Shown: piece after piece, positions 17,301 to 40,860 of the stretch | Layout: the number at the start of each line of letters is the position of its first letter | How positions within the stretch are numbered: position 1 is the stretch's first letter | Source of the DNA: Opitutales bacterium | Lineage (GTDB): Bacteria > Verrucomicrobiota > Verrucomicrobiia > Opitutales > Coraliomargaritaceae | Assembly: GCA_018607135.1 (NCBI GenBank) | Contig: JABBCA010000083.1 | Location: forward strand, 1 to 50,990 | DNA: 50,990 nt | Direction of reading: 5' to 3' | Program-made: the position numbers and the translations under genes | Notes under the pieces: model-generated | Seen by the model: the letters and a program-made list of their open reading frames with translations, nothing else | What the model was told of the DNA's origin: nothing | Databases searched by the model: none

Positions 17301-20300
17301 TGTCATTATAAATCTGGACACCCGTTGTATCTACAGCCAGCGCACCACCATTAATGATCGTGTCGCCACCTCGTTGAGCAGGATCCCAGTCAGTAAGGAC
17401 TTCAGTTGCGTCCACATCATCTGTGAAAGTCGTAGTGCCCGAGGTGTTGACCTCTAGGCGATCCAGAGGATTCGCACCTGCACCGACAGTGTAAAGGAAG
17501 GTTACATCACCTGTGCCTGCATTGTCAGTTAGATCAAATGGACCTACGGCACTATCTACAGTCGCATCATAAAGAATGTTGCCCCCAACGCCAGTGCCTG
17601 TGCCATGAACAACGTCGCCAGTAAGCTGAACATTCAAAATATTATCCGCAGATGTGAAGGTGATATTATCACCAGTCGTAGTGATATCGCCTGCTGTGAA
17701 CACTTGACCGAGGCCGAGCGCAGAACGTGTGATCAACACATCGCCCGTTGAGACGATGTCGCCAGTGGCAGCGAAAACGAGATCATTGGCGCCGCCGAAT
17801 GTGATGTCTACAGTGCTGGTGCCGAGTAGCTCGCCCCCACTTGTAGTCACGAGATCGTTGAAATTAATTTCACCATCTGCAAGTATACCGTTTGTGCCAT
17901 CATATGCGAAGCTACCTTGGCTTGCGGTAACAATTCCAAACGCGCTAATGGCATTACTGCTGAATGTATCCAAAAGGATGTTACCTTCGTTAGTAATAAA
18001 GGAGGCAGTGCCATCAACCGTGATGATGCCACTTTGTGTGATATCGCCAGGGTTGTTCGTGATTAAAGTGAGGTCACCTTGAGTATCTGCGACCGTCTGA
18101 CCGATGGATACACTGTCGTTCTCGCGTAGGAACATGTCAGAAACACTGTTCTGTTTGTTGAAATTCAATATAGCGATGTTCGTAAGAATATCTTCCCCAA
18201 GTGCGCCAGTGCCGATGTTACCACCGCCCACAAGCTGGTCATTGATGTTCAGCACGCTCGCAGTGATGATTGCATCTGTGTCACTAGTTGGACGAGTCAA
18301 GTTACCTTGATTGTTAATGGTGACACTCAGTGTAGAGTTATTGCCGATCGCGTCGCGCATGACCATGTTACCAAAGGTCAACTCAACAGTGTTTCCGATA
18401 ATCGTGGCATCTTCGAGCTGATCGATATCCAATCCACCGACATCAATGGTTGTGCCGCCGACCGAGGAGGTGATAGGACCCGCAACGATTAAATTAACGC
18501 CACCACTATAAGTGAACGCATTGGTGGCAAAGCCATTATCAATCTGTGCGACTGAGTTGGTCTCGTCGAGTAGCACGCTTCCATTTAAACTGGAGATCGT
18601 TAAGGTATTCGCGGTCAGCGTTGCACCAGCACCTTGTGTGATGTTGCCATTACCACCAATCGTGCCGTCGACCGCCGTTGCAGCTTCGAGGACTAGATTA
18701 TCAATCGTAGAGGCAGCACTAAAGTTGATGCCATCTTGCTCGCGGATAAAACCATCATCCAATGGGCGAGTGATTTCGAGGTTAGCAACCTGTGTGCGTA
18801 AAGGATTCGCAAGTTCACCAATATCGCCATCACTGGAGCCGCCAATGGTATCGCCATTGAATACGAGCGTGCTGGTTGGGCCTTGGATGCTACGGTCACC
18901 ACCTTCTTGAATCACATTAAAGCCAAGATTATCGCGCGGTGTGAGCGTAATGGTGCCGCCATTGTTTAAGACGATTTCTGGATTTCCAGAATCACTATCA
19001 AAGACTACTGAATTACCTGAGTTACTACCAGCTGTGGTGCCTGATGTAATCGTCAACCCTTCGATCGCAGCACCATTTTGGTAATCCCCTGTGAGCTCTG
19101 AATACGTCATGTCCAGATTGCCACCACCGTTGAGAATGACTTCACCATCATTCAGAGCACTCGTTGAAATCCAGACAATACCGCCGTTGCCGTTCACGTC
19201 GGTATCTGCGTTCAAGGTAAGATCCCCCCCGCCGTTCACCGTCAATGTCGCACCGATGACAATATCTTCAAGTGCGCTCAAAACGAGGTTACTATTTACA
19301 GTGAGATCGCCCAAGATGGAAGTCGTTGGGTTTTGATCTGAAATATAAACATCCGCGATGCCGACCGTCGGAGCGACATTAATTGTTGGGCTACCTACAA
19401 TGATGAAATCGCCACCTGCACCTGCACCGCTAGAGACAACTGCGTCAATGGTCACTGGACCATTGATGTAATTACCTACAAGTTGAACAAAGCCGGCGGT
19501 TGCGCCAACAGCTTGATTCACATCCAACGCACCATCAGTATTGATCTCTACACCATTGGAAGCATTTACGCCATTAGTTGCACCCAATACGCTGGTGCCC
19601 GAATTCACATTTAATAGCCCCGTGCTCACGTTTTGCACATAGAATCCACCGCCATTTGCATTACCAACAAGTGTGCCATCTAGATCAATTTCAAGTGCGC
19701 CAGTAGATACATCCCCTTGAGCGTGGCCAACGAGTGTGCCAACAGATCCGCTGTTTGTGCGAAGGATTAAAGTGCCATCCGTGCCACCTACGATGATTTG
19801 ATTGCCAGGAGCTCCCTTCAAGATCGAGCTACCGGAACGAATTTCTGCAACACTGCCACCAAGCGTGTTGCTCAAGTTAAGGTCTGCAGCACCGATTGTC
19901 ACATCAGAACCACCATTGGTTTCCATCACAAAGTCGCCACCAATGGTGCCAGCAATTTCAATCGCAGCACCACTGTTGTTTTGTATGCGAACTAGATCGG
20001 TCGTCGCCGCCTTTTGAAAATCAATTGTTGAGGCATTGGTAGTAAGCTCATTCGTAGCAGCTGCGCCGCCGACCCCACCATTGCCTTGTAAGATCACGTT
20101 GGTCGCCGAGACTGTGCCTATAGTGCGAGTCAATGTGCCCGTATTATTAATGGTCGCGTTCGTGGTGGTGCCATTCGCACCCACATTTGCGCCCAATGCC
20201 ATCGTGCCGCCAGATGTTAGAGTAATGTCAGTCGCCGAGGCGGTGCCGATATTTGCACCTGGGTTGATCGCTAGGTCTGTGCCCGCATTGATATCAATGA

Positions 20301-23300
20301 CTGAGCCACCAGTATCGCCGACTGCTCCACTTAAAGTAACTGTAGTAAGCGCATCGATATCAATCGTGCCCGCTGCGCTGTTCACTGTCTGTCCTGCTGA
20401 ATTGCTCATTGCACCACCAGAGGCATTGAGTGTTACACCATTAATGGCACTCACCGCGCGATTCAAAGAAATATCACCAACTGTGTTGGTTAAGCTGACT
20501 ACACCACCAGAAGAAACAAGACCGCCTCCGATAACGACTGGAATACCAGGGATCGTGCCAACAGTCACGTCACCTGAGACATCATTTTGTATGACCAGAT
20601 CACCACCAAATGCTTGGCTTTGTATTGTGTAAGAACCTTGTGTGAGTAGAGGTGTGCCCACAGCACCAATCGAAAGGCCACTCAACTTAAGACTGCCGGA
20701 GTCCATGATAATAGCGCCACCAGTCTGAGCGATCGCACTCTGTGCATCGATAACGACATTTGCGGTGCCTGGCGTTATATCTTCAGCGAGTGTGATTCCA
20801 CCAAATGTAGTGAGTGTAACATTCGCATCCGTAGTGGTGATGCCATCTACTACTGTTGTATCGAGTGCAGTGACTGAGCCGACTGTAAAGCCGTCGACTT
20901 CTTCAAAGTCAACCGCACCTGTAGTCAGTCCAGCGAAGGTAGTCACATTATTAAGACCAGAATTACTCAAAATTACCGAACCGGGAGTTCGAACAACTAG
21001 GCTATCTGCTAAAATTCCTGCGCCAAAGCCTTGTGTGATATTTCCAGCTGTAGTGCTCAAATCTACAATGCCAGAAGCTGCAGAAATCAATGTTGCGAAG
21101 GATTGACCAAGGTTCGCATCATTTTGGAAAGCAAAATCGCCACCCACAGTCACATTGCCTAAGGCGCCAGTCGCATTGCTGAATGAATTGATCTGAGAGC
21201 CTAGATCCAAACTACCAGCAACCGAAGCAGTCAGTAGATTGGATGTGCCACTCGCAGTGATTACACCAGATTGAGTCACTCCTGATGTGGTCGTTTGAAT
21301 AGTTAAATTACGAAGCAACGTGCTTGTAGCGAAATCGATGTCGGCTGCACCCCCGTGCGCGATAGAAACGTCACCAAGTGCCAATGCGCTGGTTTCTTGA
21401 ACATCAAAATCGATTGTTCCCGCGAGGTCATTGGCTGCGTTGTTAATAAGTATGCTACCGCGAGTCACACCGAGATTGTTACCTGTTGATGCTTCTGTGA
21501 TAAACGTAGCGCTGCTCGTAGCCGGTGTCGCAAAAGTCACCGCGACCGATTGTGTGATACCGGTTTCAGCATTACTTACAAAAGTGCTGCCAGCGGCGAC
21601 ATCCGTGCTGAAGGCGACATTGTTAAAGTTGTTACCCGCTTCGTTCAGGGTAATGGCTGCACCATTTTGAATCGCAGTGAAGGCGACACCATCGTCCTTA
21701 GATTCAACAACAAGGTCACCAGTGATACCAGTCACTGTCGCTGCGTTGACTGTCGTGCCCAGATCGACTACGCCTGCGCGTGAAATCGTGACATCGCCAC
21801 TTCCTCCAGAACCAACAACAGTTACACTGTTATTTGGATCGTCTAGAGTCACAGTTGAACCGCCGGTCACTGTAAGCAGTCCTGCTACAGCCACTCCATT
21901 TGCATCGTCTGCGTCTGCAGAATCAGTCACTGCACCAGCAGCACCTGTGTTGATATCAAGATCACCACCGACCAATGTGCCTCCTGGTAACAAGGCTGGA
22001 TCGTTCTGGAAATTAACGTTACCATCAGAATCGGCAATGGTCACATCGCCTGTCGCTGCAAGCGTGGTCGCAGCACTAAAAGAACCCGCAGAAGTAATTG
22101 AGGTTCCAGCAGTTTGATTGATTGCATCCTCTGATGTCACAGTCACGCCCCCTGCAGCATTCGTTTGATTGATCGTGCCCAGTGTAATGGTGTTACCCGC
22201 ACCTGTGTTGGTAATTGCAATCGCACCTGCCGTTGCATTCGCGGAGTCAATTGAGCCAGCAAGATCGATAACGCCAGTGTCAGTAGTCAGTGTCACAGTG
22301 CCAGTTGTCGCCGCAATGCTGGAAGCTGCATCTTGAGTGATTGAGCCATCACTATCAGTGTCAGCTACGCCCGCTTGTAGCGTAATATCCTCTGCCGCAG
22401 AGATATCACCGTCCACTACCACACTATCTCCAGAAAGCATTGCCAGAGAGCCAGTCGTTTCAGAAACGGTCACACCACTATTAATAGTGATGTCATCTGC
22501 ACCCGCAGCACCGTCGTCACTACTGGTATAAGTGAATGTATTGCCGGAGCCAGTATTCGTCGTGGTGTTGACTGCAAAGGTAATCGGGCTACCCGCAGTG
22601 ATTGTGCTATCCGTATCGCCAGTAATAGAGGTCGTCGCGAGCGAGCCCTCAAGTGCACTCAGATCTGCAATCGTAAGCGTCCCCGTGTTGGTTAACTCAA
22701 ATGAACCAGCGCCAGTTTTTTGAACCGCGAGATTGCTAACTTCGGTCACTAGGCCTGAAACTGCGCCATCCGCAAGAACACCCAAGTCTTGAGCCGTAAG
22801 CGTGCCTGAACTTTGAGCGATGCCAGCAGCAGAATCGATTAAAATCGTGTTTGAGGAATCGACATCTGCATTGATACTAATTGATCCTGTCGATGTAGCC
22901 AAGCTCACGTCCGTGCCAGCTAGCAACGCTTCTTCAACAGTGAGTGCGCCAGCGCTCTGAATGTCGATAACTCCATTCGTGGCTTCAATGCCGGTGAGAT
23001 TTGGATCGGGAACTACGTCAACACCAACGCTTATATCGCCCACACCACCAATGGTAACCGCCTGGCTGCTTTCAAGATACACATTCGTATCCGCAATTGC
23101 TTCTACATTTGCAACTGAGATACCCACTGCTTCTGAGGCAACAGCGGTCCCGATGGAACCTCCCGCCTCTAAACGTGCACGTGCTCCAATAATGTTCGCG
23201 CTTGAGCCTCCAGTAGCATCCGTAATGTCCCCACCTGCAACGACACTGACCGCATCACTCGCGGACAATACGCCCAATGCTACATTCGTCGTAGCATCGT

Positions 23301-25605
23301 AACGAATATCGCCACCACTAGTTTGAGCACTGCTTGACATTGTAATCGCACTCGCAGAGTCGAGCCTAACATCACCTGAAGCAGTGATGTTAGCAGACTG
23401 AGTCACGGTGTTTGCTGTGACACTAATATCACCAAAATTATTTTGTAAGCGACCACTGTTTAAATCGAAAGTGCCAACAGCAGTGATTTCTAGATCACCT
23501 GCAGCTTCCACATCGACCCACGTTACATTATCGATTGTAATATTACGCCCCGCATCGAGAGTTAGGTTTCCTCCACTGTCAATATCTCCCCAAGAACCGC
23601 TCGTTCCTAGAAGGATATCTCGGCCAGCCGTTAAGCTGACACTACCAATTGAATCGATAAACAAAAAGCCTCCAGCAGCCTGAACGTCAGAAGTCACACC
23701 ATTTGCAGTTACGCTGACATCACCTGACGTCGTCGTAATAATTTGACCAGTTCCAGCATTCGAAAGAATCGAGCCATTGCTGACCAACTCGATGTCACCA
23801 TTCACGCTCGTGATGTCAGAAGCGCCAATCACCAAATCTACACCGCTTGTATTCTCTATAAAAATTCCACCAGAGGTAACATTGTCAGCGTCAATCGTTC
23901 CTGTGCTTACCGCAATCGATGAACCCAAAGCTCCGATACCAGTGGATGCATTAAGAGAAACTGAATTGGCAGTGATCGTGCCAGCAGACTGACTGATTAA
24001 GCCGTCTGCATTGGCGATAAAATCACCACCTGCTAAATTGGCCGAATCATTTAGAAATACACTGCCTGGCGCATTCAATGTGAGATCAAGAGTGTCGCCG
24101 CCTGCCGCGCTATCTAGAAATTGTCCATTTATAAAAATGTCATTACCTGCGTCGAAAACTAGAGAATTGTCACCAGTGCCGTCAAAGTCCCAATCCGTTG
24201 ATAAGGTAATGTCGCCAAGATCTGGGCCTATGCCATTCGCGAGTAAGGTCAAAGTGATTCCCCCAGTAAGAATCGCATTTAAAAATCCGACTCCGACCTG
24301 ACTGCCTACAAAAGCGCCGTTACCTGCGATAATCTCAATATCATTTGGGTCGATAAGCCATTCTCCTCCTGCGTTCAGTTCGGGGATTTTAGCAAGCACA
24401 AGATACTCCGCTCCTGAGGTTTCAACAAACCCGCCAGAACCGTCGCCAGCTCCTAAAGCTGTGAGAGTGCCAAGAATTACTGCTTGCTGACCTGCATAGG
24501 TGATGATCGTGCCGCCGCTTCCACTAATGAGTGCATCCGCAGAAAGCGTGGCGTTTTCACCGATAGTCAAATTGTCTGCATTATTGATCGTCGCATCCAA
24601 ACCTTGCTGGCCACCACCGATCTTGATCGAACCACCGCCAAAGTCACCCGATGCATCCACAAGTGCGTTGTCAGTGAGGTAAACATCATCCGCAGTGACC
24701 TCAATCTCACCGCCTGTTGAACCTGTCGCATCGATTGTGCCACTATTATAGATATCGCCGCCAGTTCCAGTCAGACGAACACGGCCGCCTGAGGTGTCAA
24801 AATTTTGCGCGCGGATCACGCCAGTGTTGTTCACGGCGGTGGAATATGCAGAACCCGTTGCATTTAGAGTGACCATTGCTGCTTGCACCTCACCTGAATT
24901 GCGAATGGCTTCGCCGTCCAGCTGTGTATCCGAAGTCGAACCGACCAAAACACTCACACGGCTATCTTCACCCGCTGGCTGTAATAAAATCTGTGTGCCA
25001 CTTGCGAGGCCCACTTCGTCAGCAGAGACGACACTACCTTGATTGTCCACTTGCTGGGCAAAAAGAAAAACCCCGGCATCTCCAGAGATGGAACCGAGGT
25101 TGGTAATTGCTGCATTCGACTCTCCAAGAAATGAAAGGTCGCCGCCATTCAAGAAGTCTTCATTGGATACGTCAAGTGTTGCCCCTATAAATGCCGCTGT
25201 ATCGATGACACCATTTGCTCCCACTGTGATGCCATTTGGATTAATCAAGAAAATTTGTCCGTTCGCAGAGAGCGTGCCGTCAATCAAGGATGGTGTTAGC
25301 GTCACGACTCGATTCAAAGCTGCTGCGTTTGATCCCGTCTGGATGAATTGAGTGAGCGCTCCCTGACTGATCGAAAAGTCGTCCCAATTAATAATCGCAG
25401 TCTGGCTCCCTTGCGTGATGGTCAAGACATTGCCGTCGCGGTTGAAATTGACATCACCGGAGATGACTTGCTCTCCCGAAGGGACCGACGCTGAAGCCGC
25501 TACGATTAAAGCGCTTGGGTGCATGCCGACCATTAGGAAGGCGGTGGTTCCGGCGATTAGCTTGTTAAGTTTAGATGGGCGACCGAGACGTATTAGTGAG
25601 AGCAT
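8386..25605 (-). CDS. Giant two-partner secretion exoprotein, filamentous haemagglutinin/adhesin-like (TpsA)
   Basis: Predicted surface or released adhesin of about 5,739 residues, one uninterrupted frame. Numbering from the ATG at 25605 (a GTG at 25638 adds 11): signal peptide about 1-39; TPS domain about 40-270 with NWDDFSI and the diagnostic NPNGI at 122-126; then the GGFVETSG (391-398) and GGEWLIDPNDI (413-423) motifs typical of large TpsA proteins. The rest is Gly/Ala/Ser/Thr/Asp/Asn-rich beta-helix sequence. It includes a 483-residue tandem duplication (about 3250-4218) and a ladder of 26-27-residue rungs (about 4320-5215). I saw no cysteine where I checked closely. The last 110 residues differ: they are aromatic and charged (QIENEF…YFYRDPLNPFVERDRERIRR) and end in FEDVVILP. 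No RTX, toxin, intein or LPXTG signal was found. It is strongly acidic. An adhesive or biofilm role is inferred from the family; the ligand is unknown. Transporter gene is directly downstream. Confidence 0.95.
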   Translation of the reverse strand: MLSLIRLGRPSKLNKLIAGTTAFLMVGMHPSALIVAASASVPSGEQVISGDVNFNRDGNVLTITQGSQTAIINWDDFSISQGALTQFIQTGSNAAALNRVVTLTPSLIDGTLSANGQIFLINPNGITVGANGVIDTAAFIGATLDVSNEDFLNGGDLSFLGESNAAITNLGSISGDAGVFLFAQQVDNQGSVVSADEVGLASGTQILLQPAGEDSRVSVLVGSTSDTQLDGEAIRNSGEVQAAMVTLNATGSAYSTAVNNTGVIRAQNFDTSGGRVRLTGTGGDIYNSGTIDATGSTGGEIEVTADDVYLTDNALVDASGDFGGGSIKIGGGQQGLDATINNADNLTIGENATLSADALISGSGGTIITYAGQQAVILGTLTALGAGDGSGGFVETSGAEYLVLAKIPELNAGGEWLIDPNDIEIIAGNGAFVGSQVGVGFLNAILTGGITLTLLANGIGPDLGDITLSTDWDFDGTGDNSLVFDAGNDIFINGQFLDSAAGGDTLDLTLNAPGSVFLNDSANLAGGDFIANADGLISQSAGTITANSVSLNASTGIGALGSSIAVSTGTIDADNVTSGGIFIENTSGVDLVIGASDITSVNGDIELVSNGSILSNAGTGQIITTTSGDVSVTANGVTSDVQAAGGFLFIDSIGSVSLTAGRDILLGTSGSWGDIDSGGNLTLDAGRNITIDNVTWVDVEAAGDLEITAVGTFDLNSGRLQNNFGDISVTANTVTQSANITASGDVRLDSASAITMSSSAQTSGGDIRYDATTNVALGVLSASDAVSVVAGGDITDATGGSSANIIGARARLEAGGSIGTAVASEAVGISVANVEAIADTNVYLESSQAVTIGGVGDISVGVDVVPDPNLTGIEATNGVIDIQSAGALTVEEALLAGTDVSLATSTGSISINADVDSSNTILIDSAAGIAQSSGTLTAQDLGVLADGAVSGLVTEVSNLAVQKTGAGSFELTNTGTLTIADLSALEGSLATTSITGDTDSTITAGSPITFAVNTTTNTGSGNTFTYTSSDDGAAGADDITINSGVTVSETTGSLAMLSGDSVVVDGDISAAEDITLQAGVADTDSDGSITQDAASSIAATTGTVTLTTDTGVIDLAGSIDSANATAGAIAITNTGAGNTITLGTINQTNAAGGVTVTSEDAINQTAGTSITSAGSFSAATTLAATGDVTIADSDGNVNFQNDPALLPGGTLVGGDLDINTGAAGAVTDSADADDANGVAVAGLLTVTGGSTVTLDDPNNSVTVVGSGGSGDVTISRAGVVDLGTTVNAATVTGITGDLVVESKDDGVAFTAIQNGAAITLNEAGNNFNNVAFSTDVAAGSTFVSNAETGITQSVAVTFATPATSSATFITEASTGNNLGVTRGSILINNAANDLAGTIDFDVQETSALALGDVSIAHGGAADIDFATSTLLRNLTIQTTTSGVTQSGVITASGTSNLLTASVAGSLDLGSQINSFSNATGALGNVTVGGDFAFQNDANLGQSFATLISAASGIVDLSTTAGNITQGFGAGILADSLVVRTPGSVILSNSGLNNVTTFAGLTTGAVDFEEVDGFTVGSVTALDTTVVDGITTTDANVTLTTFGGITLAEDITPGTANVVIDAQSAIAQTGGAIIMDSGSLKLSGLSIGAVGTPLLTQGSYTIQSQAFGGDLVIQNDVSGDVTVGTIPGIPVVIGGGLVSSGGVVSLTNTVGDISLNRAVSAINGVTLNASGGAMSNSAGQTVNSAAGTIDIDALTTVTLSGAVGDTGGSVIDINAGTDLAINPGANIGTASATDITLTSGGTMALGANVGANGTTTNATINNTGTLTRTIGTVSATNVILQGNGGVGGAAATNELTTNASTIDFQKAATTDLVRIQNNSGAAIEIAGTIGGDFVMETNGGSDVTIGAADLNLSNTLGGSVAEIRSGSSILKGAPGNQIIVGGTDGTLILRTNSGSVGTLVGHAQGDVSTGALEIDLDGTLVGNANGGGFYVQNVSTGLLNVNSGTSVLGATNGVNASNGVEINTDGALDVNQAVGATAGFVQLVGNYINGPVTIDAVVSSGAGAGGDFIIVGSPTINVAPTVGIADVYISDQNPTTSILGDLTVNSNLVLSALEDIVIGATLTVNGGGDLTLNADTDVNGNGGIVWISTSALNDGEVILNGGGNLDMTYSELTGDYQNGAAIEGLTITSGTTAGSNSGNSVVFDSDSGNPEIVLNNGGTITLTPRDNLGFNVIQEGGDRSIQGPTSTLVFNGDTIGGSSDGDIGELANPLRTQVANLEITRPLDDGFIREQDGINFSAASTIDNLVLEAATAVDGTIGGNGNITQGAGATLTANTLTISSLNGSVLLDETNSVAQIDNGFATNAFTYSGGVNLIVAGPITSSVGGTTIDVGGLDIDQLEDATIIGNTVELTFGNMVMRDAIGNNSTLSVTINNQGNLTRPTSDTDAIITASVLNINDQLVGGGNIGTGALGEDILTNIAILNFNKQNSVSDMFLRENDSVSIGQTVADTQGDLTLITNNPGDITQSGIITVDGTASFITNEGNILLDTFSSNAISAFGIVTASQGSFAYDGTNGILADGEINFNDLVTTSGGELLGTSTVDITFGGANDLVFAATGDIVSTGDVLITRSALGLGQVFTAGDITTTGDNITFTSADNILNVQLTGDVVHGTGTGVGGNILYDATVDSAVGPFDLTDNAGTGDVTFLYTVGAGANPLDRLEVNTSGTTTFTDDVDATEVLTDWDPAQRGGDTIINGGALAVDTTGVQIYNDNVLLTNANAGTTTLNGGGVEFNGGLESQVLANPVNLVITDSATTRFNTSVGTTNPLQTLTVTSDAIVINGDATAASNNTLTQDVTGITIQTYGTQTYNAANGIFVGGGSTGTTPNTLTTHVAVDDTTAGDIIFNGDLNGLSAGINDLVLTAGDTSNVAVTGDIEFNGSAGTTTEMGDIVITAANNVDITGGNAILSTTFLQEQGFGTTTVSGPITTSSDQTPVYATQPPILAGGGIQINANNIIVNADLTAGGEGRINLNSGEDILISEATVATTAASNTDPTVNNRIDLTAGDDIVIGDAAATADTFVTTVNGNITLTSGNSAALDNADGILIQGSDAADADAIITAGGVDNGDIAITGLGTSSVNILGGDNDGSIAGAFSEDDTTITINNGDLVANAGAGNNAAAGAISGGSQTVNITEGDFIVNGSDTGILGIAGFAATETQDITLTDGDMTLSGGDADAAVAIVAAGSTQNVTLLDGDLTVTGGAGANSLAGMLLAGDADQTVTVSLGDATLQGGTGANASAGIQLDGNGLQTVTIGNDTDDTFGNLSITGGVGDFAFAGIENTGTGNQVVNVDNNLTLLGGTGLEANAAIHQSDTGNQFVTLGGATNNGGNGDLNITGGDGEDADAYILANGALIQNVTVQAGDITLQGNLDTVNNNSDAYIQAFSSDTTQTIAVSGGSDITLIGGNGDNERAQILSGNDQFISATGVISLTGGGAAGNGSYAEIRADGIQDILAGDTNNTGTALNVQGGSSTGNNDYALIIGGTDGTSTQTITTTQGDIILAGNAGNSSAAVDGTSTEFGAAIVNNGLAQTITLNGDGDLSLTGGTEADTAAAIQMTNIAGAQAITVGSTAGNLTLNGGTGEDAYALIRSQGTGATSQSIQVQDSIALNGNAATSSVTVNGQNIGAAIVSDGTQDIDTLTAGSISLTGGTVDNSAALITTTTTGGAQTVTVNGAGDLNITGGVGNNSSAGILLVGDSPQTVEVLLGDATLQGGAGDNSSAGIQLVGNGLQTVTIGNDTDDVNGDLTITGGSGTSAFAGIENTGTGIQVVNVDNNATLTGGTGEDSNAAIHQSGSGDQTVVLGGATNNGGLGDLEVRGGNGLNASAYILANGATTQTVQVQQGDIRVLGNTDSAANGSEAYIQSFSTTTTQIIDVDGVAGDGNIFVTGGTGDDERARILSGNDQDIDASGVLVVRGGNGAGNGSFADVRADGIQDIAVVNTNGDPVAIAVQGGTSIGSDDYALIIGGTDGTSTQTITTTVGDINLSGIQGNSSAPVDGSTTEFGAGIINNGLAQTITLNGAGDLILTGGTIDDSAALIEMTNTAATAVQVITVGATSGDLAMNGGTGEDAYALIRSQGTGITGGDIAQVINVQDNITLNANSATSSVAVDGESIGAAIVSDGSQTIDTLTDGNITLTGGTVTDSAALISSTSATGFQEVTVGGVGNLSVLGGSGQNADAIIRGAGTDQSPTEAAQQITVQNGQLIVTASTTVNGGDAAIDSTNANQSQSIDVNGTPSPAGTMTVNGGAAGTVARISSAGAQVIEVENEIDINALLAASDVDITAVDTQTITSENADIDVVATGTGATVDITAGLAQMIDAATSIDIEAANTAAVVVQNTTGVQNITAGTDITVDADTAGTVLVQADAGTQTIEAGDSIDIDADGAGTIVTVNSLTADQDIDALNESITITANNSAAINVTADTNQTIDAETFIDVNASNSSQVLVEARTGTQGITARTGDITLDVNGNDFIQVLAGSTQAIDATEGSIIATVNTGGITIQNDAGTQDLTAGTNIVIDVTNGAATVEATDGDQSLLAVGDIDVDVNSGLVRIESVTSEQDIIADTGDVTFDGINGATINVLAGSNQLIEATLGSIIGNINTGSLTIQNDVGTQELDADVDIVLNVTSGAITVEATDGSQTLTATNDIDMDSSSGSIRVESVTSDQTLTAEEGDLTIDLINGSSGQILAGTTQLLEATEGNIAGTVNVGGLTIQNDLGTQDLLAGASISLDVTNGSAVVEATNGSQTLTAGDDIDVDVVSGSVTIDSVTADQTLTATAGDITFDVTNGSASVLAETTQLLQAQAATGSINGTVNTGALTIQNTSDTQQLLAGQDITLDVTTGSGLIQALDGAQTLRATNGLISASSMSASNITIDSTNNTQTIDAVDGAINLNSQVNSGLFVTSLLTQDIDAQTTIDITSDTTSSLLVESTTADQSIVAETGDITIQATGASGINVLAATTQAIEATAGELIVSATDSSTVTIRNTSGAQTLTAGTDIDIDSTNLSGVLVQADSGLQTITAENNVELNGNNAGVTLRSALADQIITATTGDITIDGIAGSGLTVEAATGQTLDAARNIAVDMDASALTIRNNAGPQLLDAENDVTVVADTGSTVIIESVDGLQTVNAGGLIDLAADSSTIIVDSLADDQVLTSVGVTNLTGVNGGTVDVYAINSTLNNAGGVWTDDVQVGQSGLTETVTINNSGAITVADVDPAHIHIIADAGAETIFFNGVGSVGATDPTLVDDLRVVTSAGIIDFGNAAKDLALDERVGDVAIEGVANSINLILSSTGSLTDSAAIAANTATLLTTDGDIDLGSSEIVNFQGVIANGNITIESIIPAATFSNRAVSADIPAGEGIYATGNIEIIAAGDITIAADAVRSTGGNILFDTNLLTLDAASATAYDPLLDISGPTDPLGVGTITTDVGTQTFESEVVLSSNTQIVSADEVIFNNTLIGPAGLQVDGDARFNDAIGSLNNPLGYLVLNSDDTQFNFDSGATDPSTLGLDDTVLTAIIGGSFINNGTVTVAPGLNYTFITDANTFGTESNPDAVFQGGNFLGTDAADITIFAGAIDSISFLSLAPSYPSFYASWQIENEFTGLTMENGNLFQIGAYFYRDPLNPFVERDRERIRRVGNTKTAEVAYEESAALSNLAGNIPSASGRAGGVQASSYSQGSAGVTQTVFEDVVILP
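10870..12150. repeat. 106-codon super-repeat (318 bp) in the C-terminal third of the exoprotein gene
   Basis: The encoded TIQND/TIQNT rung recurs at DNA positions 11945, 11627, 11309 and 10988, a spacing of 318, 318 and 321 bp. Each 106-residue unit holds four 26-27-residue rungs in fixed order, ending respectively in VEATDG, VESVTS, VLAGS/VLAET and LTIQND types. Adjacent single rungs continue on both sides (about 9960-12640) with weaker four-fold order. Unit edges are approximate. Confidence 0.8.
12940..14395. repeat. Large tandem repeat in exoprotein gene, second (C-terminal) copy
   Basis: This copy is offset by 1440-1449 bp from the one at 14396-15850 over its whole length. For example, 38 bases starting at 13529 are identical to 38 bases starting at 14978. 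The encoded segment IIGGTDGTSTQTITTT is identical in both. The order of rungs (ENTGTG, NNGGxGDL, YILANGA, RARILSGNDQ, DYALIIGGTDG, GEDAYALIRSQGTG) is the same. Edges are approximate. Confidence 0.85.
14396..15850. repeat. Large tandem repeat in exoprotein gene, first (N-terminal) copy
   Basis: Partner of 12940-14395; together they encode two successive copies of about 483 residues. The copies have diverged in many codons but contain long identical DNA blocks, so the duplication is either fairly recent or kept similar by gene conversion. Confidence 0.85.
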
Positions 25606-25652
25606 AGTAAAATAAACTATTATGACAGTTAGGGACACAGTTCACCCAGTGG

Positions 25653-33744: not shown

Positions 33745-34166
33745 GCGAACCCAATCCAAGCACACCAATCAACCAACAAACCGCAGACGGCCTACGCTAT
33801 GCTCGTTGGGCGGGTCATTTATTGGGTATATTGCTCATAGGTCTCGCGATTAAGAACTTGTTGGTCGGAGCGATGGGAACCTTCACCGCCGTCCAAACCA
33901 GCTATTTTATTATTTACGGGCTCCTGCTCAACGCACCGTTCACCAAAGTGCCCGATGCTTATTGGAAACGCGTCTATGCAGTGCTAATCGCTCTCTCCTT
34001 TCTTTTTGTGTTTCTCATGATCGCGACCGTGATGTTTGCCTACATGGCGGCAGCAGATCGCGGGGAAAAACTCGGAGTGCCTGGCTTTGAAGGCACGCTC
34101 ATCTTCCTCGCGCTGTTGCAGGTGCCGGTGATCTTGTTTCAACGCAAACCAGACCTGCTTGATTGA
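33741..34166 (+). CDS. Multi-pass inner-membrane protein of unknown function
   Basis: Not recognised. 141 residues with four hydrophobic segments (about 23-43, 54-65, 80-103 and 118-133), short loops and a polar N-terminus ([17 protein letters not shown]). The last residues, QRKPDLLD, are charged and probably cytoplasmic. Its ATG overlaps the ogt stop (ATGA) and its stop overlaps the next start (TGATG), so the three genes form one coupled transcript. The operon gives no clear functional hint. Confidence 0.8.
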   Translation: MSEPNPSTPINQQTADGLRYARWAGHLLGILLIGLAIKNLLVGAMGTFTAVQTSYFIIYGLLLNAPFTKVPDAYWKRVYAVLIALSFLFVFLMIATVMFAYMAAADRGEKLGVPGFEGTLIFLALLQVPVILFQRKPDLLD

Positions 34167-34813
34167 TGGCAACCCCCTACAAACACATCATCTGGGACTG
34201 GAACGGCACCTTACTCAACGACACCTGGTTGTGTGTTGAAGTGCTCAATGGTCTACTTGCTAAACGCGGACGTGAGCCGATCACTGAAGCCACCTACCGA
34301 CAAAACTTCGGCTTTCCAGTAATCCACTTCTACGACTATTTAGGCTTCGATACCGATACTGATAGCTTTGAAAAAGTGAGTCATGAGTTTATTGGCGACT
34401 ACGAAGCTCGTTGGCTCGAAGAGACCAAACTGCACCCCCAGACCAATGAAATCTTGGCCCAGCTGAGCAACAGCGGACACACGCATTCGGTGCTCTCAGC
34501 CGCGAAGCAAGAAGCACTCGAATTTGGTATCGAACATTTTGGTTTACGCTCTCACTTCACAGGTCTCATGGGTGCCGACAATATCTACGCAGAGGGAAAA
34601 GTAGGGCAGGGAATGCGTTGGATCCAACAACTCCAATGGGAGCCGCAAGAGGTGGTGCTCGTCGGAGATACCTTACACGATTTCGAAGTCGCCGAAGCCA
34701 TGGGCACCCACTGCATTTTAATGGCACATGGGCATCACACCCCAGACAGACTGGCAAAAACGGGAGCGCCCGTTGTGCATAGCTTGGAAGAGCTTGTGAA
34801 ACTCTTGCACTAA
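34166..34813 (+). CDS. HAD-superfamily hydrolase, phosphoglycolate-phosphatase-like
   Basis: Predicted cytoplasmic phosphatase of 215 residues. Motif I is DWNGTLLND, with Asp11 as nucleophile and Asn where the second Asp of DxDGT usually stands. Asn at this place is found in some Gph/HAD relatives. A helical cap follows, with motif II in HTHSVLSAAKQE and motif IV in VVLVGDTLHDFEVAEAMG. This pattern fits the phosphoglycolate phosphatase/beta-phosphoglucomutase group; the substrate cannot be told. Start ATG at 34166 overlaps the preceding stop. A HAD phosphatase in an operon with ogt would fit clean-up of repair products such as phosphoglycolate, but this is only inference. Confidence 0.88.
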   Translation: MATPYKHIIWDWNGTLLNDTWLCVEVLNGLLAKRGREPITEATYRQNFGFPVIHFYDYLGFDTDTDSFEKVSHEFIGDYEARWLEETKLHPQTNEILAQLSNSGHTHSVLSAAKQEALEFGIEHFGLRSHFTGLMGADNIYAEGKVGQGMRWIQQLQWEPQEVVLVGDTLHDFEVAEAMGTHCILMAHGHHTPDRLAKTGAPVVHSLEELVKLLH

Positions 34814-34988
34814 TTTGCTCAAAATACGTTTGCCAATGGCAACATTGAACATTGCTAATACGTGTTGAGAAGCGCTGCACTAGGCGAACCTCAACAACAT
34901 TACATCCGAACACTACCGGACACTCACCGCGTCTTTGACGAACCCCATTCCGGGCGTTCTCCGCGAAACGAGACATTTTTTACATCCT

Positions 34989-36491
34989 ATGGACATTGCT
35001 ATTGTCACTGGCGCCGAGACACCACTCGGTCTCCGGATCATTGAAGGTTTGATTCAGCAGGGCTGCCGTGTGCATGGCATCGGCAACAACCTCTCGAAAG
35101 TCACTTACGCAGATCGTAACTTTATCGCACACGCGATCGACGTCAGCGACCTCACCGCAGTTCAAAAAACTGCCAGCGAAATCCTCGAGAAAGAGGGCGC
35201 GCTACACATTTTGATCCATGCGATCGATGTCACACCTGGAGGCAGTTTTGAAAACCTTCCCGTCGGAAATTTAGAAGCAATCTTGAAGATTGGCTTGCTC
35301 GGCCCAGTAATGCTCACGCGCATGGCATTGCCGAACTTGCTCCGCTATCGCGGGCAACTAATCAACGTGATTCCAGCCAACAAAAGCGGTCATGCGCCCA
35401 GCGCAGTCAATGCACTCATCGAAGGTGGACTGCGCGAAATAAACACCGCTCTCTTTGACCAAGCACGGGATGCAGGTCTCAAGCTGACCAACCTCATTCT
35501 ACGTCAAAACACCGAACTTCCTGCTGCGACCATCAGCGACGATCAACTCAATCAAACGCGAATCGATCTCGAACAAGTCGCCCGCACCATTGATTACTTG
35601 CTCAACGCCAACGAATCCAATGTTCCCAACGAAATAACTTTGCATCCGCGCTTGAGCCAAGATGCCACTAAAGCACTTCCAGAAGCTCCACTACCCGTAG
35701 ACCCTTACAACGCAATCGTGCTCCCTCCAGCAGAGTATTGCCCACCAGAGCAGCCAAAGATTCCAACCAAACAGCCGGAGAGTATCAGTCGGACCATTCC
35801 ATACAGCGATGAGGAAATGGAGGAGAAAATCGCCGCAGCGATTGAAGATTTTGAAGAGCACCCCGAGCGCTACGAAGCTAAGGCTGAGAAACCAGCGCCG
35901 AAGAAGCACCACGACAATAAACCGCAAAACCAAGACGCAGAGAGTGGCTCGTCCAAGCGTCGCCGAGGCCGTCGCCGTGGAGGTCGTAATCGCAACCGCA
36001 ATCGTGAAGAAAACGAGTCTCAAGCTCCACAGCAGAGTGAAGCACAAAATAAGCAGAGTCAGCCAAATCCGCAGAAGACGAGCGACTCAAAAGCAATTGC
36101 AAGTCCGACTGAGCAAGAACAATTTATCAGCAAGAAGCCAAACAATCGCCGCCGCCGTGGACGCAAGCCAGAACAGGCTAAAGGCAATACCTCTGTCCAA
36201 GCTCCTGCTCACAAAGAAAGCACAGCTTCGAAGCCAAAATCGGAAAAAACATCAAAGCCAGCACCTAAAGAGACACAGGTTGATACAGCTGCACCAAAGC
36301 CTTCCGAGTCTAAGCCAGTAAAGAAAAAAGCAGCTAAGAAAGTCGTAGCTAAAAAGACAGCGACTAAGAAATCAGCAAAGAAAACTGCGGCGAAAAAGAC
36401 GCCAGCAAAGAAGGCTGCCAAAAAAGCTGCGAAGAAGACCGCCAAGAAAACGGCCGTTAAAAATACGGCTACTAAGGGATCATTAGATTAG
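34989..36491 (+). CDS. Degenerate short-chain dehydrogenase fused to a histone-H1-like basic tail
   Basis: 500 residues from the ATG at 34989. Residues 1-217 have an SDR Rossmann fold: VTGAETPLG at 6-14 fits TGxxxGxG loosely, and AIDVSDL fits the adenine-ring Asp. The usual NNAG reads HAID, and the catalytic Ser…Tyr-x3-Lys region reads INVIPANKSGHAPSAVNALI with neither Tyr nor Lys in register, so catalysis is unlikely. An acidic, Pro-rich linker (about 230-300) follows, then Arg-rich patches (KRRRGRRRGGRNRNRNR near 323; RRRRGRK near 387). The end is about 50 residues of Lys/Ala/Thr repeats (KKTAAKKTPAKK…), as in histone H1 and bacterial Hc1-like proteins. It probably binds DNA or RNA. No frameshift joins the parts. 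A longer frame to 34935 is possible. It is 175 nt after the HAD gene. Confidence 0.85.
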   Translation: MDIAIVTGAETPLGLRIIEGLIQQGCRVHGIGNNLSKVTYADRNFIAHAIDVSDLTAVQKTASEILEKEGALHILIHAIDVTPGGSFENLPVGNLEAILKIGLLGPVMLTRMALPNLLRYRGQLINVIPANKSGHAPSAVNALIEGGLREINTALFDQARDAGLKLTNLILRQNTELPAATISDDQLNQTRIDLEQVARTIDYLLNANESNVPNEITLHPRLSQDATKALPEAPLPVDPYNAIVLPPAEYCPPEQPKIPTKQPESISRTIPYSDEEMEEKIAAAIEDFEEHPERYEAKAEKPAPKKHHDNKPQNQDAESGSSKRRRGRRRGGRNRNRNREENESQAPQQSEAQNKQSQPNPQKTSDSKAIASPTEQEQFISKKPNNRRRRGRKPEQAKGNTSVQAPAHKESTASKPKSEKTSKPAPKETQVDTAAPKPSESKPVKKKAAKKVVAKKTATKKSAKKTAAKKTPAKKAAKKAAKKTAKKTAVKNTATKGSLD

Positions 36492-36652: not shown

Positions 36653-37057
36653 TCATACTGGCCAGTCGCCACTCTCGATTAAAGTGCCTTTGTGCTGCCT
36701 CAAGGTAGTTTCCGTCATTTCATAGGCCCAGAAATCACCGAGTGATTCACCAGCCGGCGTGTAACACGGCACTTTCAAGCGAATGTATTCGTTTTGCTCC
36801 ATCGGTCGATTCGCCTCGTAGCCCTCAAGCCAATCCAATTGTTCAAGATCTTGGCGACTCGCAAAGGTCAGCAAACAACCCTGCACCCACCTGTCACCAC
36901 GCAACAACAGTCCAGGATAACCTAAATGTAGATCGTAAAGCTCACCGCGTATCTTAGCGGGCTGCACTTCACTTACTTTGCCCTCGCAAAACCGCGGCCA
37001 ATAATGACCACCTGGTTTTAAGGTGCCATACACAAAGACTGTAAACGGTTCATACAT
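36653..37057 (-). CDS. Gamma-glutamylcyclotransferase-like (AIG2/GGCT-fold) protein
   Basis: 134 residues from the ATG at 37057; a TTG start at 37117 is less likely. The signature FVYGTLKPGG near the N-terminus and the segment WLEGYEANRP with a conserved Glu mark the GGCT/AIG2-like fold. Members cleave gamma-glutamyl amino compounds to 5-oxoproline, or handle gamma-glutamylamines. The real substrate cannot be told from the sequence. It is downstream of the ahpCD terminator on the same strand, so it probably has its own promoter. Confidence 0.85.
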   Translation of the reverse strand: MYEPFTVFVYGTLKPGGHYWPRFCEGKVSEVQPAKIRGELYDLHLGYPGLLLRGDRWVQGCLLTFASRQDLEQLDWLEGYEANRPMEQNEYIRLKVPCYTPAGESLGDFWAYEMTETTLRQHKGTLIESGDWPV

Positions 37058-37164
37058 AAGTGATAATGTCGCTAACTTTCTGGAAGGCTGCGCAGTGTCG
37101 TAGCTGGACGCGACCAATGGCTCTTTTTAAGATTCTGCGCTTGCGACAAAGCGCAACCCTTCAA

Positions 37165-37203
37165 AACAAAAAAAGAGGCTCCGCACATCGCGGCGCCTCT
37201 TTG
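37165..37203 (-). terminator. Rho-independent terminator of ahpC-ahpD
   Basis: AAAGAGGC (37172-37179) pairs with GCCTCTTT (37195-37202). On the minus strand the stem is followed by a T-run (complement of 37168-37174). It starts 23 nt after the ahpD stop codon. Confidence 0.8.
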
Positions 37204-37225
37204 AAAGAATAAATGGAAAGATCGC

Positions 37226-37750
37226 TTATACGATTTCAAGCGCGACTGCCACTCCGTGCAAAATCGCTGAAATACGCACGGCGTCGTGAATATTATCCTC
37301 ACTCAAACCATCCTTCTTCACAGCAGCTTCGTGTGCTTTTAGGCACATTTCACAACCAGCCAAGGCAGCAGGTCCAATTGAAAACAACTCAAAATTCGCC
37401 TTCGACGTCGCGACTTGCTGCATACGCATCATACGCAAATTAGCAGGGCGTTGATTGTAAGCTTCCGCATTCATCAAGTGACGAAACCGATAATAAATCG
37501 TGTTCATACCCATGATCGAAGCCGCACCGCGCGCATCTGCGATAATCTCCGCAGAAATACCTGCCGCTTGTGCATCAGCTAAAAGGGCAGCAGTCAACTC
37601 TGGCTTACGAATGTAATAAGCCGCAGCGAGCGCTGTGCCCCAAGTTTGCTCTGCATTTAACGATTCACCACCAAGCACACGCTTGAGGTTAATACGCAAA
37701 TCCTTCGCTTCTTCAGGAAGCTGAGAAAGTAGTTCAGCGGTCTTTTCCAT
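37226..37750 (-). CDS. ahpD: Alkylhydroperoxidase AhpD-type reductase
   Basis: Carboxymuconolactone-decarboxylase-fold protein of 174 residues. In mycobacteria AhpD hands electrons from lipoylated dehydrogenase subunits to AhpC. The active site is complete: Glu121 in FELFSIGPAALAGCEMCLKAH, Cys133, Cys136 and His140, matching the Glu-Cys-x2-Cys-x3-His arrangement of M. tuberculosis AhpD. It starts 5 nt after the ahpC stop, so the pair is cotranscribed and ends at one terminator. No ahpF is present here, which fits AhpD as the reductant for AhpC. Confidence 0.93.
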   Translation of the reverse strand: MEKTAELLSQLPEEAKDLRINLKRVLGGESLNAEQTWGTALAAAYYIRKPELTAALLADAQAAGISAEIIADARGAASIMGMNTIYYRFRHLMNAEAYNQRPANLRMMRMQQVATSKANFELFSIGPAALAGCEMCLKAHEAAVKKDGLSEDNIHDAVRISAILHGVAVALEIV

Positions 37751-37755
37751 ATTGA

Positions 37756-38283
37756 TTAAACTTTGAGCGTTGCTTCACCCTTTTTCCAGTTACATGGGCA
37801 AAGCTCATCTGACTGAATGGCATCGAGAACCCGAATGATTTCACCCACATTACGACCGACGCTGAGATTGTTGGCAGATGCATATTGAACGACACCGTGT
37901 GGATCCACGATAAATGTCGCCCGTAGGCAAACGTTCTCTTCTGGGTCTAAGATACCGAGCTCACGAGCAAGCTTTGGTGCCGCAATCAGAGGAAGCTTTA
38001 GCTCACGAAGGTCTTCGTGGTCATTGCGCCAAGCTAGGTGGCAGAACTCATTGTCTGCGCTACCGCCAATTACTACAGTATCGCGATCTTCGAACTCTTC
38101 GACATTCTTGCTGAACTCAACAATTTCAGTAGGGCATACAAATGTGAAATCCTTCGGGTAGAAGAAAAACACCTGCCACTTGCCACCGAAGCTATCATTG
38201 GTGAACTCTGTGAGGTCATCGTTAGTCAAACCATTGCAGGCTTTTACTTTAAATTGAGGGAAGTTATCTCCAACTGTGATCAT
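37756..38283 (-). CDS. ahpC: Alkyl hydroperoxide reductase C, typical 2-Cys peroxiredoxin
   Basis: Reduces hydrogen peroxide and organic hydroperoxides in the cytoplasm. 175 residues from the ATG at 38283; the frame extends to 38322 but those residues are atypical. The peroxidatic Cys50 lies in FTFVCPTEI, and the resolving Cys is in DELCPCNWKKGEATL at the C-terminus. It is first in the ahpC-ahpD operon. The upstream 294 nt hold palindromes but no clear OxyR or other operator that I could identify. The C-terminal segment is shorter than in E. coli AhpC, closer to the mycobacterial type. Confidence 0.95.
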   Translation of the reverse strand: MITVGDNFPQFKVKACNGLTNDDLTEFTNDSFGGKWQVFFFYPKDFTFVCPTEIVEFSKNVEEFEDRDTVVIGGSADNEFCHLAWRNDHEDLRELKLPLIAAPKLARELGILDPEENVCLRATFIVDPHGVVQYASANNLSVGRNVGEIIRVLDAIQSDELCPCNWKKGEATLKV

Positions 38284-38462
38284 TATCTGTGCGTATTTTC
38301 TGGTTAATTTACGAAAAAGCACGCGAGGTTGCGCCTAGAGGTAACAGAGTCAAGCCAGCCGAAAGATTTTTCAGCAACTACTACACTGGTTAATGATCTG
38401 GTAAACAGAATAGCCGAAGTGGGGAGGGTATATCTCCTAATAAAGATCATTTCTTTTGGAAG

Positions 38463-38482
38463 GGCGACTCTCACCAGTCGCC
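38463..38482. repeat. Short intergenic palindromes between ahpC and the TetR gene
   Basis: GGCGACT-CTCACC-AGTCGCC is a perfect 7-bp stem. About 40 nt further on, TTGGGGAG…CCTCCCAA (about 38524-38545) forms an imperfect one around AGATCT. The 294-nt gap 38284-38577 holds no gene. These resemble dispersed REP-like elements or the tail of the TetR transcript, rather than a terminator with a T-run. Confidence 0.35.
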
Positions 38483-38577
38483 GCCGATAGCTCCAAAATA
38501 AATAACTCTACCCGAACGGCAGTTGGGGAGATCTGCCCTCCCAATTTAGCTACAGTTCAAACATCCTCATCAAAAAA

Positions 38578-39147
38578 CTACCCACGGTTCACACCGCAAA
38601 GCTTTTCAGCCATCGCCAGGGCATCATCCATCGGCCACGTAGCCTTAAGGTTTTGCGCTTCAGTCATCGCACCCGAAAACAGTAAAAAAACCGCAGTTCC
38701 AATCCGCTGCGCGTCTTCCTGTGAGACCAAAGTGCCCACCAAATCGATAAAAAACTGTCGCTGTGCGCGTTTATATTGGTCAATAATATGAAACAACTCC
38801 TCATCTTCTTCAGCTATCACGCAGGCGGCGGTGTTAGCGAACTGACAAGAGCGAAAGCCACTGTTTTCTAACCAACCACGTATCGAGAAAAAATACTTTC
38901 TTAAGCGGCGGTCGCGGTCTCCTGGATTTTCCAAAAAACCCTCGTTTACATGCTTCATCTGCTTGGATAAGCGTTCCAACCACGCCTGCCCCAATTTTGA
39001 CTTAGAACTGTAGTTTTGATGAAAGGTCGACTTCGCTACACCGCTAGCGTCGATCACATCTTCGATGCTTACCGCAGCGTATCCGCGCTTGTGAAAGAGC
39101 TCTCCAGCTTTGAGCAATATAACCTGACGAGGTGGGATATTTGACAT
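38578..39147 (-). CDS. TetR/AcrR-family transcriptional regulator
   Basis: 189 residues. The N-terminal helix-turn-helix reads ILLKAGELFHKRGYAAVSIEDVIDASGVAKSTFHQNYSSKSKL, typical of TetR (core residues about 10-52). The C-terminal helical domain probably binds a ligand and contains two Cys (RSCQFANTAACVIAEEDEE). The target is unknown. It could control itself, the ahpCD operon downstream on the same strand, or the divergent miaB region. Start ATG at 39147. Confidence 0.92.
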   Translation of the reverse strand: MSNIPPRQVILLKAGELFHKRGYAAVSIEDVIDASGVAKSTFHQNYSSKSKLGQAWLERLSKQMKHVNEGFLENPGDRDRRLRKYFFSIRGWLENSGFRSCQFANTAACVIAEEDEELFHIIDQYKRAQRQFFIDLVGTLVSQEDAQRIGTAVFLLFSGAMTEAQNLKATWPMDDALAMAEKLCGVNRG

Positions 39148-39474
39148 TCACTATTAAGAACAGAAAACGGTTAGTTAGGGCAAGCGCTTCTGTGGAGTTC
39201 AACGTATTTTCAAAATTTTTAACATCTCTTAGACTCAACATTCGGGAGTCAGCCTCTGATCCTAAAGTAGTTATAGAATCGCAGCACCTCGTCTTTGTGG
39301 CGCCGCTTCCAATTCCGAAAGTCGTTTGCACGCAATTCTGAACTCCAAATAGCTTCGCTGTCGATGGCAGGCCTCCATCTGTCTCTTGACTACTCTTTTT
39401 TTAATATAGGATCTTCGACCAATACGAATTCTGAGTTTACAAAGCCCTCAAGCTCAACATTGTCCGACTTCCTC
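39148..39474. other. Gap of 327 nt between tetR-type gene and miaB
   Basis: The gap between the divergent TetR gene and miaB holds no gene I can support. The miaB frame extends back to 39295, but those 60 codons have no family match. It should contain both promoters; no operator palindrome or clear -35/-10 was found. Confidence 0.5.
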
Positions 39475-40860
39475 ATGAATCGGGTGTATATCAAGACCTA
39501 CGGGTGCCAAATGAACGAACGAGACTCCGAAGCGGTTGCAGCCATGCTTCGCGGGAAGGGCTATGCTGTGATCGATAACGAACAAGAGGCCGACGTTGTT
39601 CTCCTCAACACGTGCAGTGTGCGCGATCAAGCTGAACAAAAGGCGATCGGCAAAGCCGGACACCTCATGAAGCGTAAGCGTAAAGACCCTAACTTTATTG
39701 TCGGGGTCATGGGCTGTATGGCTCAAAATCGGGGCCAAGCACTACTCGATAGTCTTCCAGATCTTGATCTCGTCGTAGGCACACAAAAATTTCACCGCGT
39801 GCCCGACCATCTGAGCAACATGATCGCCACCCTGCAAGGGCAGGGACCACGCCCAGAATCCATTGTCGACCTTGCCGAAGAACTAGATTCTCAAAACACA
39901 ATTAAGTCGCATGTCGACGACAAGCCACAGGTCACTGCATTCGTCAGCATCATGCAGGGCTGCAACATGAAGTGCTCCTACTGCATCGTGCCGAAGACCC
40001 GCGGCGCCGAGCGTGCGCGACCGATGGAAGACATTGTCAAAGAGGTCGAAGAACTCGCCGCCAAAGGAACGCGCGAAGTCACTTTACTCGGCCAGATCGT
40101 TAACCAATACGGCATCCGCGAATTTCCGCATATCGATAAAAAGAGCCCGTTCGTCCAGCTACTTGAAAAAGTCCACAAAGTCGAAGGCATTGAGCGTATT
40201 CGCTTCACCAGCCCACACCCAGTCGGCTTCAAACAAGACCTAATTGATTGCTACGCGCGCCTACCAAAACTCTGCGAATACCTGCACTTCCCAATGCAAA
40301 GTGGCAGTGACCGCATTTTGAAAGCAATGCGCCGTCCTTACAGCATCGAGCGCTTCCGCGGGATTATTGATCAAATCCGCAAGGTGCGCTCAGACATGTA
40401 TATCTCCACCGACATCATTGTCGGATTCCCAGGCGAAACGGAAGAAGACTTTGAGCTCACACGAAAGCACTTTGAAGAGATCGGGTTCGATATGGCCTAC
40501 CTGTTTAAATACAGTGTGCGTCCAGATACCACGGCCGAGCCGCTTGGCGATCCGATCACCAAGGAACTAAAAGAAGAGCGCAATCAGGTGCTGCTCGAAA
40601 TTTTGGCCAGAAGCTCTCTGAGACGAAATCAAGCATTAATTGGAAAAATCGAAGACGTGCTCTTCGAGGGTCCTGCAAAAAAAGGGGAAGGCATGTTTGT
40701 CGGTCGCACACGGGGCAATCGTGTAGTGATTGTCAAAGCTAGCTCACGCCTTGTCGGGCAACTCGTGCCTGTGCGCTTCAGCCGTGTCACTGCAAACACA
40801 CTATACGGTGAGCTCGTGCTAGAGGGGGTGGAAAACGACTCAGTTACGGCTGAATCGTAG
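39475..40860 (+). CDS. miaB: tRNA-2-methylthio-N6-dimethylallyladenosine synthase
   Basis: Radical-SAM methylthiotransferase acting on i6A37 next to the anticodon. 461 residues from the ATG at 39475 (MNRVYIKTYGCQMNERDSE); the longer open frame from 39295 is rejected. The UPF0004 domain cluster ligands are Cys11, Cys47 and Cys81. The radical-SAM triad is Cys163, Cys167, Cys170 (GCNMKCSYC). FPGETEEDF follows, and a TRAM domain lies at the C-terminus (about 395-455). Its stop codon touches a long inverted repeat that may end the transcript. Confidence 0.96.
   Translation: MNRVYIKTYGCQMNERDSEAVAAMLRGKGYAVIDNEQEADVVLLNTCSVRDQAEQKAIGKAGHLMKRKRKDPNFIVGVMGCMAQNRGQALLDSLPDLDLVVGTQKFHRVPDHLSNMIATLQGQGPRPESIVDLAEELDSQNTIKSHVDDKPQVTAFVSIMQGCNMKCSYCIVPKTRGAERARPMEDIVKEVEELAAKGTREVTLLGQIVNQYGIREFPHIDKKSPFVQLLEKVHKVEGIERIRFTSPHPVGFKQDLIDCYARLPKLCEYLHFPMQSGSDRILKAMRRPYSIERFRGIIDQIRKVRSDMYISTDIIVGFPGETEEDFELTRKHFEEIGFDMAYLFKYSVRPDTTAEPLGDPITKELKEERNQVLLEILARSSLRRNQALIGKIEDVLFEGPAKKGEGMFVGRTRGNRVVIVKASSRLVGQLVPVRFSRVTANTLYGELVLEGVENDSVTAES

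Follow-up and report, generated by a model that had tools for sequence, protein, structure and literature searches.

What does a protein do that has the fold of an SDR, has lost the residues by which an SDR works and carries a long basic tail? The question is raised by a 500-aa gene product encoded in the window, i.e., the whole stretch of 50,990 nucleotides that was analysed, from an Opitutales genome of 3.5 Mb. The original prediction saw in it a pseudo-SDR fused to a histone-H1-like tail, and took the SDR half for an NAD(P)-sensing or purely structural domain tied to chromatin or RNA. The pseudo-SDR and the basic H1-like tail have stood up to the analysis; NAD(P) sensing has not. Single-copy conservation across the order and a set of conserved gene neighbours, both absent from that reading, are added here. 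The features of the locus are collected in Table 1.

Table 1. Coordinates of the pseudo-SDR gene, its parts and its neighbours in the window
Feature	Position	Strand	Basis
Upstream gene for a HAD-family hydrolase; neighbour conserved across several genera of the gene's own family	34163..34813	+	profile match, gene order
Conserved 5' leader	34929..34988	+	once in genome; no Rfam match
Whole gene, pseudo-SDR core and disordered basic tail, 500 aa	34989..36491	+	ORF/translation
SDR-fold core, residues 1-224; without catalytic Tyr/Lys/Ser and NNAG, with part of the Gly loop	34989..35660	+	Pfam, AlphaFold2, Foldseek, alignment
Pro-rich linker, residues 225-273, conserved LPPxxYxPPE..IxT motif	35661..35807	+	alignment
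Acidic predicted helix SDEEMEEKIAAAIEDFEEHPERYE (helix 274-290)	35808..35879	+	conserved in the gene's own family; a different acidic stretch in other families
Arg/Gly/Asn patch KRRRGRRRGGRNRNRNR	35955..36008	+	sequence; genome motif search
Second Arg patch NNRRRRGRK	36141..36167	+	sequence
Lys/Ala/Thr-rich histone-H1-like C-terminal tail	36318..36482	+	composition
miaB (tRNA ms2i6A37 methylthiotransferase), downstream; adjacent to pseudo-SDR in distant families	39295..40860	+	profile match, gene order

The gene and its reading frame

The gene starts with an ATG at 34989 and its stop codon ends at 36491. From the N- to the C-terminus the product consists of the SDR core (1-224), a Pro-rich linker, an acidic helix (274-290), an Arg/Gly/Asn patch, a second Arg patch and a Lys/Ala/Thr tail; reading frame, coordinates and layout are all as the fusion was first described. 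Core and tail form one open frame in the examined complete orthologues, down to 23-30% core identity. Because this single frame is conserved, a sequencing error or a pair of mis-joined genes can be ruled out, and the two halves are parts of one gene. In one orthologue, that of the 1.7-Mb genome G015 (L014/L042), the frame is shifted after about residue 52; this copy (L042:6001-6707) reflects either an assembly error or a decaying gene.

Pfam, NCBIfam and PDB returned generic SDR matches and no family name. Literature on the pseudo-SDR plus basic tail layout, on pseudo-SDRs, on Opitutales and on SPL homologues was searched, and nothing relevant was found. The view that no described system has this layout holds for the libraries and papers searched. 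Plasmid matches, sought as a sign of a mobile origin of the gene, were not found. Elsewhere in the window a giant ORF of 5750 aa (8386-25638, minus strand) carries, close to the N-terminus, a domain for two-partner secretion (TPS), and a 628-aa ORF (6494-8380) may be its transporter.

An SDR fold without SDR catalysis

Residues 3-128 match Pfam adh_short (PF00106) with E = 1.4e-13, a match found in 41 of 42 family members. The AlphaFold2 model of residues 1-240 is a classical SDR fold (pLDDT 88.6, pTM 0.86) with an intact Rossmann fold, and the best PDB matches of Foldseek to the core model are all classical SDRs, with E down to 4e-14. By fold and by homology the protein at 34989-36491 belongs to the SDR superfamily.

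To compare catalytic residues, 41 members of the family were aligned with ordinary SDRs from related genomes, 13 in number, as controls. The catalytic Lys is present in all 13 controls and in none of the 41 members. The catalytic Tyr is likewise present in 13/13 controls and is kept by a single member of the family (1/41), L105, which has Asn at the Lys position. In the protein studied here, Tyr has become Asn141, Lys has become Glu145, the catalytic Ser is Pro, and the NNAG stretch reads H-A-I-D (77-80). NNAG is replaced in most of the family, and the PG motif is also lost in most members. No Tyr-x3-Lys pair aligns elsewhere, and the loss of NNAG, Tyr and Lys that had been read from the one sequence is borne out by the comparison. 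An active classical SDR enzyme was considered and rejected, as Tyr-x3-Lys and NNAG are missing and TGxxxGxG is incomplete. Conserved polar residues that might serve another kind of catalysis were not seen at the former active site. In beta1, beta2, beta7 and alphaE, all remote from the active site, conservation within the family equals or exceeds that in the controls, whereas the active-site loops are less conserved. Helices alphaE and alphaF and strand beta7, which are interface elements in classical SDRs, are conserved in the family.

The glycine-rich nucleotide loop, first described as kept, is kept only in part. Here it reads G8xxxP12xG14, with Pro12 in place of the second Gly of TGxxxGxG. 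Across the 41 members the first Gly never varies, the third is retained in 36 (Ala in 5) and Asp51 in 28; the second has been swapped for P, E, R, S and others, and a complete TGxxxGxG survives in 9. The residues that persist, together with the intact Rossmann fold of the model, are what an NAD(P)-sensing switch could draw on, in which the core would bind NAD(P) without turnover and the redox state would alter binding by the tail, as in NmrA-like regulators. A conserved sensor would be expected to retain the pocket for its ligand, so the eroded loop counts against such a switch, as does the loss of NNAG and the PG motif in most members. With the full loop in only 9/41, NAD(P) sensing is disfavoured as the conserved job of the family and seems improbable. 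A purely structural domain, the other possibility named in the original prediction, is the better fit.

Distribution and selection

A single-copy orthologue of the same layout occurs in 74 of the 273 Opitutales genomes sampled (76 matches less two ordinary SDRs, in G041 and G104), which gives the fusion a range of nine families (f1, f3, f5, f8, f11, f19, f20, f21 and f22) with one copy per genome. It is absent from the small genomes of genera g4 and g5, at completeness up to 99%. The members in f22 (L120-L123) are divergent and unchanged in layout. Beyond Opitutales, no tail-bearing homologue was recognised in the class-wide sample, whose non-Opitutales matches have much lower scores and, in most cases, the length of an ordinary SDR; the two long-frame matches outside the order that were checked (G400 and G466) are ordinary SDRs.

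The proteins with both pseudo-SDR core and tail form one clade (support 100/96). Beside it branch the active SDRs L124 and L132, whose genes each follow an SPL-like gene directly; the nearest active relatives found are encoded in the same SPL-linked slot as the pseudo-SDR. Where dS was usable, nearly all pairs give a core dN/dS of about 0.04-0.1 (for example, dN 0.046 and dS 1.1 in L001/L031), and in every pair for which dS could be estimated the core dN is roughly one tenth of it or lower. The core is under strong purifying selection, and ratios this low argue for a real pseudoenzyme in which the dead core still serves a purpose. The protein represents a real, conserved and unnamed family of the order Opitutales, undescribed as far as searched. 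Automatic annotation would label it an SDR oxidoreductase, a job it cannot do.

Gene neighbourhood

Conserved neighbours encode radical-SAM and tRNA-modification enzymes. The pseudo-SDR gene shares 16 genomes with a gene for an SPL-like radical-SAM protein (PF20903, with scores that come nowhere near the cut-offs for true SPL equivalogs); in 14 of them, from five families, the latter sits directly upstream in the same orientation. In 12 of the 14 the matched frames of the two genes overlap by 7 nt, or by 10 nt with the stop codon; the remaining two pairs are separated by about 20 and about 600 nt. The SPL-like gene is usually preceded by a PNP/nucleosidase gene. Downstream, miaB shares the strand of the pseudo-SDR gene in 16 genomes from five families, including the locus at 34989-36491, and is never found on the opposite one. 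In f22 and f5 it touches the pseudo-SDR gene or follows it after 18-60 nt. After miaB come a gene for a small membrane protein and then gmk.

These arrangements are not universal. The SPL-like gene and miaB are both absent within about 5 kb in f11 and f19, in most of f20 and f21 and in part of f1, and in f2 and some f8 genomes the two stand together without the SDR. At the locus studied here miaB is 2.8 kb away with other genes between; those at 36653-39147 (minus strand) encode GGACT, AhpD-like, AhpC/TSA peroxiredoxin and TetR proteins. In the gene's own family, recA and an ogt-like gene lie near the pseudo-SDR gene, and no match to the SPL-like gene was obtained at E<=1e-30; this family has apparently lost it. 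The SPL-like proteins themselves make up a divergent Opitutales radical-SAM family (e.g., L095:6016-7056, minus strand, and L104:4028-5080, plus strand, among others), encoded nearly always after a PNP-type nucleosidase gene.

The order nucleosidase - SPL-like - SDR, in which G104 and G044 have an active SDR in the same position, and the constant 10-nt overlap in 12 genomes would also suit an accessory role in an unusual radical-SAM reaction. On this reading the ancestor of the SDR was an enzyme that worked together with the SPL-like protein and the nucleosidase (e.g., on 5'-deoxyadenosine or its sugar), and the tail would bring the complex to nucleic acid. Most genomes with the pseudo-SDR, the host of the 34989-36491 locus included, lack the SPL-like gene, and SPL-like genes often occur without the pseudo-SDR, which makes this reading unlikely. 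Of the two settings first suggested, chromatin or RNA, the neighbours (SPL-like radical SAM, nucleosidase, MiaB and Gmk) lean to RNA or nucleic-acid modification and not to chromatin.

The 60 nt before the ATG are also conserved, in 24 distinct leaders from the gene's own family. Across its genera they share a GAACCCC/GGGYGTTC hairpin (GAAC/GTTC plus CCC/GGG) and an invariant TCTCC; in the window the hairpin is GAACCCC-ATTCC-GGGCGTTC at 34940-34959. Standard pairs fill 98.6% of the pair cells and most pairs never vary. Covariation is weak, with double changes in two pairs, a result equalled by 26 of 500 shuffles, and a 65-nt leader stretch folds no better than its shuffles (z -0.27). A search of Rfam with the leader gave no match, and a sigma-70-like promoter was sought there and not found. 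The leader may work as an RNA hairpin with a regulatory role or, at the DNA level, as an operator.

The basic tail

The acidic linker, the Arg/Gly/Asn patches and the Lys/Ala/Thr tail are as they were first described. The tail has a pI of 10.2, against 5.4 for the core; its last 60 residues are 40% Lys and 42% A/P/T, and its Arg/Gly/Asn patch reads RRRGRRRGGRNRNRNR. At the sensitivity used, the Arg motif has one site in the host genome; for the Lys/Ala motif a single further, weak match was obtained. The only other Lys/Ala tail from the host-genome tail search is H1-like, Lys/Ala-rich and N-terminal, in a zinc-finger protein of the DksA/TraR type (L129:781-1677, minus strand, contig C2), whose gene adjoins an lspA-like gene and an apparent ileS.

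Among 58 tail sequences, some of them from the same genome and near-duplicates included, 51 have a pI above 9, 42 have at least 7 Arg within 12 residues, and 40 have at least 25% Lys over the last 60 residues. A clear Arg patch is missing from the f19 tails and from a few more. Tails differ in length and evolve faster than the cores in nearly all pairs, as might be expected of an ordinary SDR with a functionless low-complexity tail or of a mis-joined gene pair. Given the layout shared by nine families, one copy per genome, the strong selection on the core and the retained charge pattern of the tail, such an explanation is very improbable. From its composition the tail, basic and H1-like, probably binds nucleic acid.

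That nucleic acid could be chromosomal DNA. The main rival to the interpretation proposed below is a nucleoid tether, in which the tail would sit on the chromosome as in PhaF and AlgP, and the core would bind a protein or granule, thereby positioning cargo or compacting DNA. The H1-like composition of the Lys/Ala/Thr tail suits it, as do recA and the ogt-like gene close by in the gene's own family. AlgP and PhaF likewise combine a non-catalytic N-terminal domain with a Lys/Ala-rich DNA-binding tail that positions granules (PMC9239181, PMC5658603). The Arg/Gly/Asn patch is not typical of either protein, however, there is no known cargo, and what the ancestral gene order suggests is radical-SAM and tRNA-modification functions rather than granules; a PhaF/AlgP-like tether is a doubtful candidate.

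Proposed function

The preferred interpretation, to which we give a probability of roughly 40%, is a non-catalytic SDR platform whose basic tail binds nucleic acid, RNA or tRNA more likely than chromatin, and which serves as an accessory to the SPL-like enzyme and MiaB. The catalytically dead core would be the protein platform. It would be oligomeric, sharing a fold whose usual state is a dimer or tetramer, and the flexible tail, with its Arg/Gly/Asn patches and Lys/Ala end, would bind nucleic acid without much sequence specificity. With one tail on every copy, such an oligomer would bind nucleic acid multivalently. The conserved gene neighbours suggest that the protein evolved as the downstream partner of the SPL-like radical-SAM enzyme and that it may act on a substrate class shared by that enzyme and MiaB, most likely RNA (tRNA) and not chromatin, its role being to concentrate or present the substrate.

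The lean to RNA over DNA comes only from the gene context and the Arg/Gly/Asn patch, which do not separate the two. Counting against the interpretation are Lys/Ala tails of the AlgP/PhaF kind, which bind DNA, those tails of the family without a clear Arg patch, the missing SPL-like gene and the distant miaB in the gene's own family, and the families with neither neighbour close by. To our knowledge MiaB needs no such partner in other bacteria. A fuller history, in which a former operon partner of the SPL-like enzyme ceased to be catalytic, acquired a tail for multivalent RNA binding and turned into a platform for tRNA/RNA modification, an independently evolved bacterial counterpart of what SDR5C1 does in mitochondria, is conceivable and on balance rather unlikely. 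If the tail does bind RNA, the family would be a second case of an SDR fold turned nucleic-acid platform, and would offer a handle on the job of the Opitutales SPL-like radical-SAM enzymes.

Comparison with known systems

Classical SDRs (FabG, 17-beta-HSD14, 3m1a and others) have the same fold and clear homology to the core, whereas the pseudo-SDR lacks Ser-Tyr-Lys, NNAG and the full Gly loop and has a tail added. Bacterial H1-like proteins of the chlamydial Hc1/Hc2 type share the Lys/Ala-rich tail by composition only and have no SDR domain; homology to them is not claimed, because likeness between low-complexity sequences is compositional.

PhaF and AlgP of Pseudomonas, like the pseudo-SDR, have a folded N-terminal domain followed by a long disordered Lys/Ala-rich tail. 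Their N-terminal domains are helical and not SDR, and their tails are KPAA-type repeats without an Arg/Gly/Asn patch. PhaF is a tetramer, and in both proteins the H1-like tail binds DNA (PMC9239181, PMC5658603).

The closest working precedent for the proposed function is human SDR5C1 (HSD17B10/MRPP2) in the maturation of mitochondrial tRNA, where it is the non-catalytic SDR part of the TRMT10C-SDR5C1 tRNA complex. For the pseudo-SDR, the gene neighbourhood with miaB hints at a possible association with a tRNA-modifying enzyme. Unlike the pseudo-SDR, SDR5C1 is an active dehydrogenase; its partner is TRMT10C and not a radical-SAM enzyme, and the kinship of the two proteins is noted only at the level of the SDR superfamily. 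We know of no such basic tail in SDR5C1. Its role in tRNA modification and processing is independent of dehydrogenase activity or an intact NAD site (PMC3526285, PMC10602865).
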